Shown piece after piece: positions 3,133 to 45,748 of a stretch of 64,000 nucleotides of DNA. The notes below the pieces were generated by a model. That model made no database searches, was not told where the DNA came from, and saw only the letters and a list, made by a program, of their open reading frames with translations. How positions within the stretch are numbered: position 1 is the stretch's first letter; each line of letters opens with the position of its first letter. This DNA is from Cohnella algarum. Its GTDB lineage: Bacteria; Bacillota; Bacilli; Paenibacillales; Paenibacillaceae. The stretch spans positions 5,389,001 to 5,453,000 of the forward strand of contig NZ_JAFHKM010000002.1 of the NCBI RefSeq assembly GCF_016937515.1. Reading direction: 5' to 3'. The position numbers were made by a program, and so were the translations under genes.

Positions 3133-3162
3133 CCATTCAGCAGGAACGCGCGCTTCACGTCC

Positions 3163-3194
3163 TTCTGTCTCGGTCCTTTCGGCTCAGAGCAGAA
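3163..3194 (-). promoter_or_regulatory. Candidate pan RNA motif hairpin in the panBCD leader
   Basis: Minus-strand hairpin: outer arms TTCTG/CAGAA, then CTC/GAG, a G-C-rich upper stem and a GAAA loop. Read with single bulged adenosines on both sides of the upper stem, it resembles the published pan motif, which occurs in 5' leaders of panBCD operons and is built of hairpins with opposing bulged A residues. Only one such hairpin is obvious; many pan motifs are tandem pairs. It sits in the leader, upstream of the terminator hairpin. A covariance-model search would decide. Confidence 0.5.
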
Positions 3195-3283
3195 TCCGCC
3201 GCGAAATGATCACGGTTATTCGTTTGTCCTTGAAAGCCTTGCGCAAGTGCGATTCGCGAACGGCGATAACGCCTTGCCGCTTC

Positions 3284-18914: not shown

Positions 18915-19525
18915 GTCCGCACCCTCGTGAACCAGTTCAGCACCAGAAGCGTCATGACGACGCCGAGCAGCGACAGAGCGATCCAATATTCGGGATAGGC
19001 GGGCGATGCGTGAAGCACGATCGGGTCGCTCAAGCTTGCCACCGGCACGTCGACGGACAAGCGGGAACCCGAGCTGGCGACGGAAAACGCGGAGGCCGTT
19101 TCCATGACGCCCGTCCTGCCGGTATCGGAAGACATCATGCGATCCGCGAGCACGTACAGAAACCCGCAGGCGAACACGGCCAGCAGGGAGGCAAGCAATC
19201 CGGCGACCCGGATGCGGAACGCCCTTCCGAATGCGTAAGAGCGCTGCACGGCGGGCATGAACCAATTTTGCTCGGCGTAAATCCGGTTCATGACGTTGCG
19301 GTTCATTTCCTCGAGGTTAACCGATTTTTCCAAATAATTCTCGAATTCCTCGTCCATCGGCAGCGACCGGATCAGGCTGGCGCTTTCCTCCCAGAGTCGA
19401 TATTCCTCGAAGCAGCAGGCGCAAGAGCTTAAATGCTCCTCGACCTGGCGCCGCTCCGATTCGGAGGCGGATCCTTCGCAGTAATCGCTGAATTTCAATC
19501 GTATCAGATCGCACCCGGTCTTCAT
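18911..19525 (-). CDS. Anti-sigma factor with zinc-finger (ZAS-type) domain
   Basis: 204 residues. The N-terminus carries the HxxxCxxC zinc motif (EEHLSSCACCFEEY) of anti-sigma domains. Two membrane segments: about 108-128 (VAGLLASLLAVFACGFLYVL) and near the C-terminus (YWIALSLLGVVMTLLVLNWF), with an outside loop of about 50 residues between them. The ATG overlaps the stop of the ECF sigma gene. It should hold that sigma factor at the membrane until an envelope signal arrives; the signal is unknown. Confidence 0.88.
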   Translation of the reverse strand: MKTGCDLIRLKFSDYCEGSASESERRQVEEHLSSCACCFEEYRLWEESASLIRSLPMDEEFENYLEKSVNLEEMNRNVMNRIYAEQNWFMPAVQRSYAFGRAFRIRVAGLLASLLAVFACGFLYVLADRMMSSDTGRTGVMETASAFSVASSGSRLSVDVPVASLSDPIVLHASPAYPEYWIALSLLGVVMTLLVLNWFTRVRT

Positions 19526-20118
19526 CGCGATTTCATCTCCTCAATATCCTTCAGCAGAACCGGCTCGCTAAAATAAGATTCCATTTGCGTCTTGACGCTG
19601 GCCCTGGCCCGAAAGAGCAACGATTTGACGGCGCTCACCGTCTGTCCCAATATGCCCGCGATTTCTTGATAGTCCATGCCTTCGTACTCGCGTAGAATGA
19701 GAGCGGAACGCTGCTTCTCCGGCAAATTGTTGATCGCTTCCCGCACCTTCAACACTTTCTCGTTTCGCAAAAGAGCCATTTCCGGGGTCGCCTCCGGAGG
19801 AGCGGCGGGTATGTATGCGGAGTCGTCCAGCGACATGTGGGCGGCCTTCTGCTTCCGAAGCTCGCTCAGAACGGTGTTTCGCGCGATCGTATACAGCCAG
19901 GTCGCGAACGAAGCGTCCACTTCCCGAAACGAGTGCAAGCTGCGGTACGCTTTGTAAAACGTTTCGGAGCACAAGTCTTCCGCGAGCAGCTCCAGCTTGG
20001 CGCTGCGCAGCATATGGTATATAAATGAAAGAATCTTCTTCTGGTAACGCGTCATTAATTCCGAATAAAGTTCAACGTTTCCGTCCTTGATTTCCCGAAT
20101 CAGTTGCGAATCGGTCAT
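19522..20118 (-). CDS. ECF-type RNA polymerase sigma factor
   Basis: 198 residues with sigma region 2 (about 20-90; AEDLCSETFYKAYRSLHSF and FATWLYTIARNTVLSELRK) and region 4 (about 125-175; LPEKQRSALILREYEGMDYQ, then the helix-turn-helix EIAGILGQTVSAVKSLLFRA). No region 1.1 or 3, as expected for ECF factors. First gene of a tightly overlapped sigma / anti-sigma / phosphatase operon. The leader at 20190-20215 has a hairpin with a T tract on the minus strand that could limit read-in. The regulon is unknown. Confidence 0.92.
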   Translation of the reverse strand: MTDSQLIREIKDGNVELYSELMTRYQKKILSFIYHMLRSAKLELLAEDLCSETFYKAYRSLHSFREVDASFATWLYTIARNTVLSELRKQKAAHMSLDDSAYIPAAPPEATPEMALLRNEKVLKVREAINNLPEKQRSALILREYEGMDYQEIAGILGQTVSAVKSLLFRARASVKTQMESYFSEPVLLKDIEEMKSR

Positions 20119-20380
20119 CGACCCTGCGAGCCTCCCCTCTTGTGCAGGGATTCGCTTGCAGCCGGCTTATACCAATATACCGGCCATAAACGAAAAAGTT
20201 GCGCGAAGCGCGCATCTTCCACACAACCCCATTATTTTACATAGGCTATTTGCTATTGTAACACACCGCGAAGAGCGCAAAGCTTAAAAAATTCTAAAAA
20301 TGCTTTTTTGGCGAATGGAACCGATTCGAGGTCCTTGAAGCGAATGTCGCAATAAAAATTTCGAAAACGCTTCAAAAATA

Positions 20381-20395
20381 ATGAAAACGCTTATT
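20381..20395 (+). promoter_or_regulatory. cre-like site upstream of the small-RNA promoter
   Basis: ATGAAAACGCTTATT matches the CcpA operator pattern WTGNAANCGNWNNCW at all but one position. A weaker relative (GAAAACGCTT) lies 20 bases further upstream at 20363-20372. Both share GAAAACG with the perfect site at 20402, giving three copies at 20- and 21-base steps. Confidence 0.45.
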
Positions 20396-20422
20396 GACAA
20401 AATGAAAACGGATACATATAAT
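20394..20422 (+). promoter_or_regulatory. Consensus SigA promoter of the candidate small RNA
   Basis: TTGACA (20394-20399), exactly 17 bases, TATAAT (20417-20422): full consensus at both hexamers. Predicted start near 20429. It points away from the sigma-factor operon into a gap with no credible protein gene. Confidence 0.85.
20402..20416 (+). promoter_or_regulatory. Perfect cre (CcpA operator) in the promoter spacer
   Basis: ATGAAAACGGATACA fits WTGNAANCGNWNNCW at every position and fills the spacer between -35 and -10, where bound CcpA would block RNA polymerase. Seen: the match and its placement. Inferred: repression by preferred sugars. Confidence 0.7.
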
Positions 20423-20428
20423 AAAAGT

Positions 20429-20509
20429 ACAGTATGGTTTCTCTCCACTCCTATCCAATATCTGAGCGTTCGACGTAACGCTCGCGCCACTCCTTGAGTG
20501 GCGTTTTTT
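20429..20509 (+). ncRNA. Candidate CcpA-regulated small RNA
   Basis: About 80 bases between a consensus promoter and an intrinsic terminator. The 5' third is unpaired and pyrimidine-rich (CTCTCCACTCCTATCC, near 20442-20457), able to pair with Shine-Dalgarno sequences. Then comes a 7-base-pair hairpin GAGCGTT/AACGCTC (20464-20483) and the terminator hairpin. A 14-codon frame (from the ATG in AGTATGG) has no ribosome site. No open frame with a start signal follows, so I read it as a trans-acting RNA rather than an mRNA leader. I do not recognise a known family. Confidence 0.65.
20485..20509 (+). terminator. Terminator of the candidate small RNA
   Basis: CGCCACTC, loop CTT, GAGTGGCG, then six T: a perfect 8-base-pair intrinsic terminator on the plus strand. 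Confidence 0.88.
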
Positions 20510-20943
20510 GTTTGTGATCCAATGGGCGGCCTTATGACGCATGCCGTGATTCCGAATATCCCGGGTAATGCGGGAAGCGCAATAGAAAAGTTATTCCTTA
20601 ACCATAAAACGTTCGCAAGCCTTGATTTGTTGCACGATTTTTTTCGTTGGCAATTGGATCTTCTCGACGGTATGATTTCACACCCTGTAATGGGATGGAA
20701 CGCGACCGAAGTCTCGAATACGTCGGGCTTGCGTCACGATTATGCGTTATTCGCGTTCAGACTTCCTCCGCTCGCGAACGGGGATTACGGGCAATTGTAC
20801 GAGAGAAGGCAGCGACTGGCACTTGGCCGTATTCCTGGCGAGGATTCGAACGAGGGTAATGCAGGAATGGGCAGGAGTATGCGGGATTGGACGGAGGATG
20901 CAGGATTGGCCGGGGATGACGCAAATGGGTTCGCCTAAGCTTG
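20510..20943. other. Gap with no credible gene
   Basis: Open frames here (the longest on the plus strand would begin inside the terminator of the small RNA) lack ribosome sites and family resemblance. GC content falls in the first half and rises again after 20800. I see no RNA gene or repeat other than loose GGATTGG/GGATGCAGGATTGG fragments near 20882-20910 that resemble the units of the repeat module that follows. Confidence 0.5.
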
Positions 20944-21124
20944 GTTGGATTTTATCCAACCTAATTCGGCTTTTTTGAGATACATTTCGGCTTCGTTGGA
21001 TTTTGTCCAATCTGGCGAGGCCTTATTAGCGTTTTTGTCCAAATTCCGAGTCCCTCATTGGATATAATCCACTCTAGGCAACGATTTCCTCGTTTTCCGC
21101 TCCCTTGATTGGACGAAATCCAAC
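20944..21124. repeat. Four-unit palindromic repeat module, copy A
   Basis: Four 17-base near-palindromes of the form RTTGGAYWWWRTCCAAY at 20944, 20995, 21057 and 21108 (GTTGGATTTTATCCAAC; GTTGGATTTTGTCCAAT; ATTGGATATAATCCACT; ATTGGACGAAATCCAAC). Start-to-start steps are 51, 62 and 51 bases. Copy B at 45567 has the same four units in the same order with steps 51, 63 and 51, and related sequence between the units. No protein frame fits convincingly, though frames across it give repeated LDKIQ-like peptides. Confidence 0.85.
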
Positions 21125-21324: not shown

Positions 21325-22470
21325 TCAGAAAAACACTTCATGCCCAAGCGATCGAAGCAGTCCGACCGCTCGGTCGAGATCGTCCTGCTGCCGGAACGAC
21401 AGGCGCAATACGCCGGGAACGTCCTCGCGGCTCTCGATGATATGCAGATTGCTCAGATTGATTTTCTCCTGGCCGAGCTCGGTCGCGATTTTGCCGATGA
21501 TTCCCGGCTGGTCGGGAACGTTGACATAGCATTCGTGCAGCGAAGAAATCATGCCCTTGCGCCGTTCGGGAAGCTGGTTGCGAAACGCCCCGGCGCTGCG
21601 GAACTGTTCCGCTACTCCGTCTCCGTCCCCGGCTTCGAGCAGCGCCGCGAACTTGTCGATGCCGAGCCGCCAATCGTCCAGCAGCTTCAACAGCACTTCC
21701 TTGTTGTTGAGCAAAATATCGCGCCAGATCGTCGGATCGCTCGAAGCGATGCGGGTAATGTCGCGGAAGCCGCCCGCCGCCAGGCTGCGGTACAGATCGT
21801 TCGAATCGTTGTAGGCGGCGATCTGGTTCACGAGCGCAACCGCAATAATATGCGGCAAATGGCTGATGGCGCCGACAATGTCGTCGTGCATCTTGGAGTC
21901 CGTTTTCACGATTTTCGCCCGGGTCCAGCGCAGCAGCTCCTCCAGCCGTTCCAGCGCCCCGCTCGGCGTCCGATCCGTTGGCGTCAACACGTAGTAGGCG
22001 TTCTCGAACAGGTCGGGCGACGCCGCCTCGACGCCGCTGCGCTCCGATCCGGCCATCGGATGGCCGCCGATGAAAGCCGCGCCGCCAAGCTCAAGCCGCT
22101 CGGCGAACGCGACGACGGACGCCTTCGTGCTGCCGACGTCGGTGATGACGCAGCCGGGCTTCAGCGGCAGCTTCGCCAACTGTTCGATATAATCGTTCAG
22201 GCGTCCGACCGGCACGCACAGAAAAATAAAGTCCGCATCCGCAGCCGCTTCGGCGATCGACGTCGTGCCGACGTCGACCACTCCGAGCCGCTCGTATTTT
22301 CGAACCGAAGCCGGGTTGATCGAATGTCCGACGATTTCATACCCCGGCTTTCCCTTCCAGCACAGCGCAAGCGAGCCCCCGATCAGTCCGACGCCGAAAA
22401 CGGCGATGCGGATTTTCGGCGGGGCGGTTGTTTCCCCTTGTTGGATAAAGCCGTCGAGATCCGCCGCCAT
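21325..22470 (-). CDS. tyrA: Prephenate dehydrogenase with C-terminal ACT domain
   Basis: Oxidative decarboxylation of prephenate to 4-hydroxyphenylpyruvate for tyrosine. 381 residues. NAD-binding GVGLIGGSLAL near residue 27, catalytic GGHPMAGSERSGVEAA near 135, the C-terminal dimerisation part, and an ACT domain from about 310 (CYVNVPDQPGIIGKIATELG), the usual tyrosine-feedback module. Starts 3 bases after the hisC stop; HisC likely transaminates its product, the classic Bacillus arrangement. In B. subtilis the EPSP synthase gene follows tyrA; here the repeat-bearing gap follows instead. Confidence 0.95.
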   Translation of the reverse strand: MAADLDGFIQQGETTAPPKIRIAVFGVGLIGGSLALCWKGKPGYEIVGHSINPASVRKYERLGVVDVGTTSIAEAAADADFIFLCVPVGRLNDYIEQLAKLPLKPGCVITDVGSTKASVVAFAERLELGGAAFIGGHPMAGSERSGVEAASPDLFENAYYVLTPTDRTPSGALERLEELLRWTRAKIVKTDSKMHDDIVGAISHLPHIIAVALVNQIAAYNDSNDLYRSLAAGGFRDITRIASSDPTIWRDILLNNKEVLLKLLDDWRLGIDKFAALLEAGDGDGVAEQFRSAGAFRNQLPERRKGMISSLHECYVNVPDQPGIIGKIATELGQEKINLSNLHIIESREDVPGVLRLSFRQQDDLDRAVGLLRSLGHEVFF

Positions 22471-45566: not shown

Positions 45567-45748
45567 AGTGGATTTTATCCAATCAAAACCGGCTTTTTCG
45601 TGAAACGTTTTGTCTACGTTGGATTTCGTCCAATCGGGGGAGCCGATTTCATTCATTTCCGGTCGAAATGGTCGTTTCTCGTTGGATAAAATCCACTGTA
45701 GATCGAATATACTTCGTTATTCGCTTCGCCGATTGGACAAAATCCAAC
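45567..45748. repeat. Four-unit palindromic repeat module, copy B
   Basis: Units at 45567, 45618, 45681 and 45732: AGTGGATTTTATCCAAT, GTTGGATTTCGTCCAAT, GTTGGATAAAATCCACT, ATTGGACAAAATCCAAC. Steps are 51, 63 and 51 bases, against 51, 62 and 51 in copy A. Matching units keep their private features: unit 3 ends ATCCACT followed by TAG two bases on, unit 4 is GATTGGACRAAATCCAACATAGG-like in both. The linkers between units 1 and 2 also align (CGGCTTTTT at the same place). The flanks 45190-45566 hold no gene. Confidence 0.85.

Follow-up and report, generated by a model that had tools for sequence, protein, structure and literature searches.

Between an ECF-type sigma factor gene and the prephenate dehydrogenase gene tyrA of Cohnella algarum lies a gap in which an earlier note, made from the letters alone, had placed a small RNA under control of CcpA. 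The locus raises the question of whether the gap holds such a gene, what controls it, and on what its RNA would act. The analysis reported here covered the whole 64,000-nucleotide stretch in which the gap lies (the window), together with related loci from the same order and from class Bacilli. On the evidence assembled, it is likely that the gap carries a free-standing gene for a trans-acting, non-coding small RNA (sRNA) of about 80 nt that is repressed by CcpA and whose core pairs with ribosome-binding sites (RBSs). In the proposed mechanism, CcpA would sit on a cre between the promoter boxes (in relatives, on one at the -35 box or in the terminator DNA) and keep the gene from being transcribed as long as a preferred sugar is available; upon exhaustion of that sugar the sRNA would be made, and its C/U-rich, mostly unpaired core would pair with purine-rich RBSs and lower translation, with target mRNAs that would differ between lineages. 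Such an RNA is probably a little-known arm of the adjustment made when preferred sugars run out.

The locus and its promoter

The features discussed below are, in window coordinates:

19522..20118, minus strand: ECF-type sigma factor gene (Pfam Sigma70_r2/r4), flanking, a synteny marker
20362..20375, plus strand: outer cre-like copy CGAAAACGCTTCAA, 11/13, by eye variably conserved among close relatives
20382..20395, plus strand: second cre-like copy TGAAAACGCTTATT, 12/13, sharing its last bases with the beginning of the -35 box; by eye, most same-genus loci retain it
20394..20399, plus strand: -35 box TTGACA, of a promoter kept in 60/60 near loci
20402..20416, plus strand: cre that occupies the promoter spacer, highly conserved among the 60 near loci, 11/13 of the stricter consensus
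20417..20422, plus strand: -10 box TATAAT, a consensus match
20429..20509, plus strand: predicted sRNA of about 80 nt, its start placed from the promoter and its end from the T run
20430..20466, plus strand: possible weak 5' hairpin that would hold the core in its loop, tentative in the window; flank-flank pairing exceeds that of shuffled flanks
20438..20453, plus strand: near-invariant core TTTCTCTCCACTCCTA, the predicted RBS-pairing segment, kept in other families too
20464..20483, plus strand: middle hairpin GAGCGTT-CGACGT-AACGCTC (helix 1), with compensatory changes
20484..20509, plus strand: intrinsic terminator (helix 2), with compensatory changes; stem 20484-20504, T run 20504-20509
21325..22470, minus strand: tyrA (Pfam PDH_N, PDH_C, ACT), flanking, a synteny marker

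The elements described in the earlier note were found in place. The TTGACA-17-TATAAT promoter spans 20394-20422 with 12 of 12 consensus bases, and only two sites of this pattern with at most one mismatch occur in the 64-kb window, where 0.03 would be expected. The cre reported in its spacer, ATGAAAACGGATACA at 20402-20416, fits WTGNAANCGNWNNCW and is the sole such site in the window; since 0.90 would be expected by chance, the pattern match alone proves nothing, and the case for a cre had to rest on comparison and conservation. The two further copies said to lie upstream at 20- and 21-base steps are represented by GAAAACGCTT, which begins at 20363 and 20383, and a third repeat unit, found at 20404 as GAAAACGGAT, belongs to the spacer cre itself. 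A 7-bp hairpin was likewise found at 20464-20483, and the terminator announced as a perfect 8-bp stem has eight perfect pairs plus one G-U. The statement that the gap holds no credible gene also stood: the frame at 20498-20938 begins inside the terminator and is kept in only one of 224 sRNA loci, the window's own. A protein search with the part of this frame from 20531 gave one match, a 100%-identical 93-residue piece on one contig.

Two arrays of four palindromes TTGGATNNNNTCCAA (at most one mismatch) were noticed at 20945-21123 and 45568-45747. Their spacing is nearly equal (51, 62/63 and 51 bases), an alignment of the two stretches shows 73% identity across 190 bases, and the palindrome has 16 strand-wise matches in the window against 0.85 expected; the arrays are a dispersed repeat, one copy of which lies downstream of the sRNA.

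The predicted gene lies in a conserved position, with tyrA/aroA on one side and the next operon on the other; homologues of tyrA were found in 170, of the sigma factor in 151 and of aroA (one query) in 49 of the 224 sRNA loci. Such constancy would suit a 3' UTR, leader or attenuator belonging to a neighbouring gene. Against this reading, which is highly improbable, the unit has its own intrinsic terminator and a consensus-type promoter retained in all 60 near loci, and its orientation is independent of its neighbours: in the 130 loci having both tyrA and the sigma factor, the RNA runs with them in 103 and against both in 27, the window being among the 27. Because of this inversion the putative sRNA gene is regarded as free-standing, an autonomous unit in a conserved gap.

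Distribution and the conserved core

A 162-base query recovered the locus from 60 of 60 near genomes (the window's own included), representing 17 of 17 genera. A covariance search among relatives, one of the checks proposed in the earlier note, extended this considerably. Model R2 matched 196 of 198 sampled genomes of the window's order and, at E<=0.01, 160 of 299 genomes of class Bacilli, with 8 of the 160 doubtful; the two samples overlap. The covariance model match in the window runs from 20428 to 20510, the window's sequence being itself among those from which the model was built.

Conservation across the 60 near loci is strong from the -35 box through the end of the core. In the core, 14 of 16 columns are invariant and the remaining two reach at least 90%; over AGTATGGTTTCTCTCCACTCCTATCC, 21 of 26 alignment columns are invariant and the others are again at 90% or above. 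The hairpin and terminator vary in both sequence and length in the same alignment. Among the matches listed, carriers of a 20-base core include Paenibacillus, Cohnella, Brevibacillus, Aneurinibacillus, Fictibacillus, Shouchella, Halalkalibacter, Pseudalkalibacillus, Marinococcus, Geomicrobium, Thermoactinomyces and Melghirimyces. The earlier note had staked its proposal on conservation of the promoter, C-rich part and terminator in relatives, and all three are conserved. Comparison thus points to an RNA gene, and the stretch is almost certainly a real one.

A number of weak matches were read individually. Those in families f13, f19 and f36 (8 genomes) are attributed to chance, as the six inspected (L119, L123, L125, L126, L127 and L129) are without the core; the three weak matches read from family f16 (L115, L116 and L124) all hold it. 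Among 30 weak loci listed, the core was present only in L122 and L124. A 27-nt antisense-like match in one genome (L061) falls inside a coding frame similar to a glycoside hydrolase and was also set down to chance. Second, diverged copies of the sRNA occur in two genomes of family f32 (L117, L118) and in one of family f37 (L102/L103), having the same core with other flanks and promoters.

An ATG at 20434 might begin a small peptide, in which case the RNA would be coding or have a dual function, as SR1 encodes SR1P. The segment ATGGTTTCTCTCCACTCCTATCC is indeed open and conserved in nearly all of the 60 aligned loci. A Shine-Dalgarno site, however, would have no space, the frame varies in length from 6 to at least 100 codons and overruns the U run in 51 of the 60 loci, and the ATG is missing from loci of several other families. 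Comparison shows no reading frame kept across the 60 loci, and a coding function is scarcely credible for what is most simply read as a non-coding RNA.

Folding of the RNA

The 83-nt unit folds with z = -4.06, and none of 200 shuffled sequences was equally stable. Both 3' hairpins appear in the window's fold. The structure evaluated for covariation, comprising the middle hairpin and the terminator, was read from the sequences themselves. In alignment A1 (60 sequences, 59 distinct), 94.9% of cells pair, and 62 double-change cells were counted against 16.3 when shuffled, a signal that collapses when the structure is slid along the alignment; weaker measures stood barely above the shuffles (11 pair types against 11.0, and 6 double-change pairs against 4.3). 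RNAalifold, run unaided on A1, predicted eight pairs, in the terminator and in a 5' UGG-CCA helix, and did not predict the middle hairpin. In the class-wide alignment A2 (64 matches), which is biased toward the modelled structure because it was fitted to the model, 97.4% of cells pair and 174 double-change cells were found against 42.4 shuffled. Comparison of the loci shows that both predicted 3' hairpins change in sequence yet keep their pairing.

The 5' part had been described in the earlier note as C/U-rich and single-stranded. Its composition and mostly unpaired state were borne out, but it is only mostly single-stranded, because in the window's fold UGG pairs with CCA inside the core. A third, weak helix may enclose the core, with flanks such as GTATGG and CCATAC, ATATGG and CCATAT, or similar. 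Over 191 distinct sequences, the flanks form 4.1 expected pairs in the order and 4.3 in other families, compared with 2.3 and 1.8 for shuffled flanks, and the core bases are unpaired with a mean probability of 0.82-0.84. The 5' hairpin is the minimum free energy structure in four of six relatives folded (L005, L181, L179 and L110). It is not in the window, L045 or L083, where UGG pairs instead with the core CCA; for this reason the folding supports an exposed core, and its display in a loop is no more than likely.

Probable control by CcpA

The cre consensus used for scoring is TGWAARCGYTWNCW. Sites with at least 12 of 13 matches were sought in 115 bases on the promoter side and 100 bases on the terminator side of 199 distinct loci, and were present on the promoter side in 66%, on the terminator side in 19% and on either side in 82%, figures that overstate independence because most of the 199 loci come from related members of one order. 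The background rates were 0.25% and 0.20% of 3980 single windows from the same loci. Comparison therefore shows candidate cre sites to be enriched at the locus.

A stronger point for a link to CcpA than these bare percentages is that the placement of the predicted site depends on lineage. In the window's order and in Shouchella it occupies the promoter spacer; it overlaps the -35 box in Brevibacillus (11/13), where a site occurs again in the terminator, and in family f16 (12/13); and it is found inside the terminator hairpin in Fictibacillus, Halalkalibacter, some Pseudalkalibacillus and Brevibacillus. With the core and covarying hairpins kept and cre enriched at differing positions, the interpretation in the earlier note of a CcpA-controlled RNA gained support. 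Given that the RNA gene is real, its control by CcpA is very probable. Repression is the expected sign of this control, since the cre lies across the promoter.

The same sites could be used by another regulator of the LacI family, and the free-standing sRNA would then not belong to CcpA. LacI-family operators resemble one another, and two of the 13 positions in the window's spacer site disagree with the stricter consensus; in many lineages, however, the site matches cre at 12-13 of 13 positions, and a different LacI-family protein is accordingly a very unlikely controller overall. In about 18% of the 199 loci neither side has a cre scoring 12/13 or more; these include two Pseudalkalibacillus loci (L163, L196) and the second copies L117 and L118. 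In thermoactinomycete-type loci (L072-L077, L079, L082, L091, L094 and L226) and in Aneurinibacillus (L152, L156) the RNA is kept with no cre above 10/13, which suggests a different regulator in those groups.

The terminator hairpins of L181, L215, L217, L179, L178, L110, L170 and others were observed to hold cre of 12-13/13, so that a single stretch could be operator in the DNA and terminator in the RNA. They are naturally occurring examples of a terminator hairpin that contains an operator-like site. A broader reading of CcpA control, tentative and on balance doubtful, would give carbon catabolite control in class Bacilli an ancestral RNA arm, the present sRNA, whose CcpA site has moved between promoter and terminator. 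The palindrome would then be operator and terminator hairpin together in Fictibacillus, Halalkalibacter and others, with CcpA acting as a roadblock at the RNA's own 3' end, and the RNA would be a functional Gram-positive counterpart of Spot 42.

Predicted targets of the core

Base pairing of the core with RBSs was examined by searching for complements next to start codons. A 10-base complement followed by the start codon (GGAGTGGAGA plus ATG) was searched in the 60 genomes, and 110 loci plus L061 were read among the matches listed. The sites fall on many genes; the largest group among the matches listed has four members, presumed RND-type transporters of two kinds. The window's genome has at least five sites of this 10-base form and none of the 12-base form. 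A 12-base complement plus ATG gave 58 sites in 55 of 392 genomes of the order; every one of them was read, and they form groups of no more than four. These groups are mostly of close relatives, with genes that we take from their sequences to encode a nitroreductase, a flippase and a fructokinase, and a presumed DoxX protein came from two families. When 30 orthologue loci for each, among those listed from the 60 genomes, were compared with background, neither DoxX (p 0.20) nor the nitroreductase (weak, p 0.028) was retained as a general target. When G-U and one mismatch were allowed, 10 genomes gave 89 near-complements of 16 nt, a total that includes 10 RNA genes and compares with 96 when the pattern was reversed. 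Neither the 10- nor the 12-base complement led to a gene that recurs order-wide as a target.

Besides the RNA genes, the sole exact 16-base complement in the 10 genomes is TAGGAGTGGAGAGAAATG, which covers the RBS and start of a gene for a HAD hydrolase in genome G270. The hydrolase was assigned by Pfam PF00702. G270 is taken to be Brevibacillus-type because G353, a genome of the same genus, has an sRNA locus that B. borstelensis shares without any difference. Orthologues of the HAD gene are present in all 24 Brevibacillus-family genomes examined and in G240; at E<=0.001 the gene is absent from G000, G037 and G041, and the window's genome is among those that lack it. Target prediction with the C/U-rich segment, another check put forward in the earlier note, had a divided outcome: one conserved predicted target for RBS pairing, the HAD mRNA of the Brevibacillus family, but none found order-wide and none established in the window's genome.

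These results bear on a further alternative, that the C/U-rich part of a CcpA-controlled RNA binds a protein or the ribosome, as a titrating decoy, and not the RBSs of mRNAs. A seed serving many targets would not need a core as invariant as this one, and the failure to find an mRNA target order-wide fits as well. On the other side, the core is complementary to the GGAG of Shine-Dalgarno sites, and the HAD RBSs of the Brevibacillus family are complementary to it far above background; a decoy is on this account unlikely. Granting the RNA gene and its control by CcpA, it is quite probable that the core acts by pairing with RBSs.

The HAD RBSs (loci L410-L434, where the gene begins 1500 bases into each locus as read along the gene) mostly retain complementarity to the core, often with a 2-nt bulge. 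The background for comparison was 431 Shine-Dalgarno-bearing RBSs from sRNA loci of many families. Among 21 distinct HAD RBSs, one of them from G240, the 1st percentile of this background is passed by 10 and the 5th by 16, giving p = 6e-12, a value uncorrected for descent, the species being related, the first genome having been found by its match and the background having come from many families. None of 200 shuffled RNAs reached the median complementarity to the HAD RBSs.

Relation to known small RNAs

No description of this sRNA was found in the literature searched, and the core sequence itself returned no papers. Two motif surveys, PMC8632094 and PMC6429828, state that their methods tend to miss sRNAs, which may account for this silence.

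By the tests made, the sRNA is a member of none of the RsaI, RosA, SR1, RoxS and FsrA families, while partly alike in working. RsaI of S. aureus, in the relevant excerpts of PMC8216469, is an sRNA with a gene of its own, regulated by CcpA, that binds mRNAs through a C-rich region; it is conserved in Staphylococcus and not in Bacilli, and its G-rich regions bind other sRNAs. The predicted sRNA would share with it (RsaI/RsaOG) the stand-alone gene, the link to CcpA and the C-rich pairing region, but the RsaOG model has 147 positions against about 80 nt here, and the conserved part here has no G-rich regions. RosA of B. subtilis is described in passages of the same paper as stand-alone and CcpA-repressed, with a predicted cre at -1 to +12, and in excerpts of PMC8464778 and PMC8216469 as a G-rich sponge with species of 92 to 225 nt and without equivalent C-rich regions. 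It resembles the present RNA in being a stand-alone sRNA for which CcpA repression is proposed; the conserved part here is C/U-rich, unlike RosA, and has no G-rich sponge regions.

SR1, according to parts of PMC8464778, is produced in gluconeogenic conditions, with CcpN as the stronger and CcpA as the weaker repressor; it is 205 nt long, encodes SR1P and has its cre about 260 bp upstream. The sRNA described here differs in keeping no SR1P-like frame and in the position of its putative cre, which lies by the promoter or the terminator. RoxS/RsaE and FsrA use C-rich regions on mRNAs, RBS pairing having been suggested for FsrA (84 nt) in sections of PMC8464778, and they answer to other regulators, Fur for FsrA and ResD with Rex for RoxS (passages of PMC8464778 and PMC8216469). 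A C-rich region proposed to act on target mRNAs is the likeness to this pair; RoxS differs in having four separate such regions.

From the excerpts of PMC8216469, the CcpA-linked RNAs of Gram-positive bacteria look narrow in distribution, with RsaI in Staphylococcus and RosA in some Bacilli. The predicted sRNA, in contrast, is present in nearly all sampled genomes of its order and also in many further families, and its core has hardly changed. It would offer a model, open to direct test, of how catabolite control acts after transcription in Paenibacillus, Cohnella and Brevibacillus.

Scans of the window and 15 relatives against Rfam gave no family matching the sRNA. RsaOG (RF01775) was not among the matches, nor were the RoxS/RsaE and FsrA models, which the library should include. 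Matches to RMST_8, rli54 and Atu_L6 lay far under their gathering scores and were dismissed as chance. Elsewhere in the window, at 3161-3275 on the minus strand, the Rfam pan motif RF01749 was detected with 38.6 bits, barely exceeding its gathering score of 36.2.
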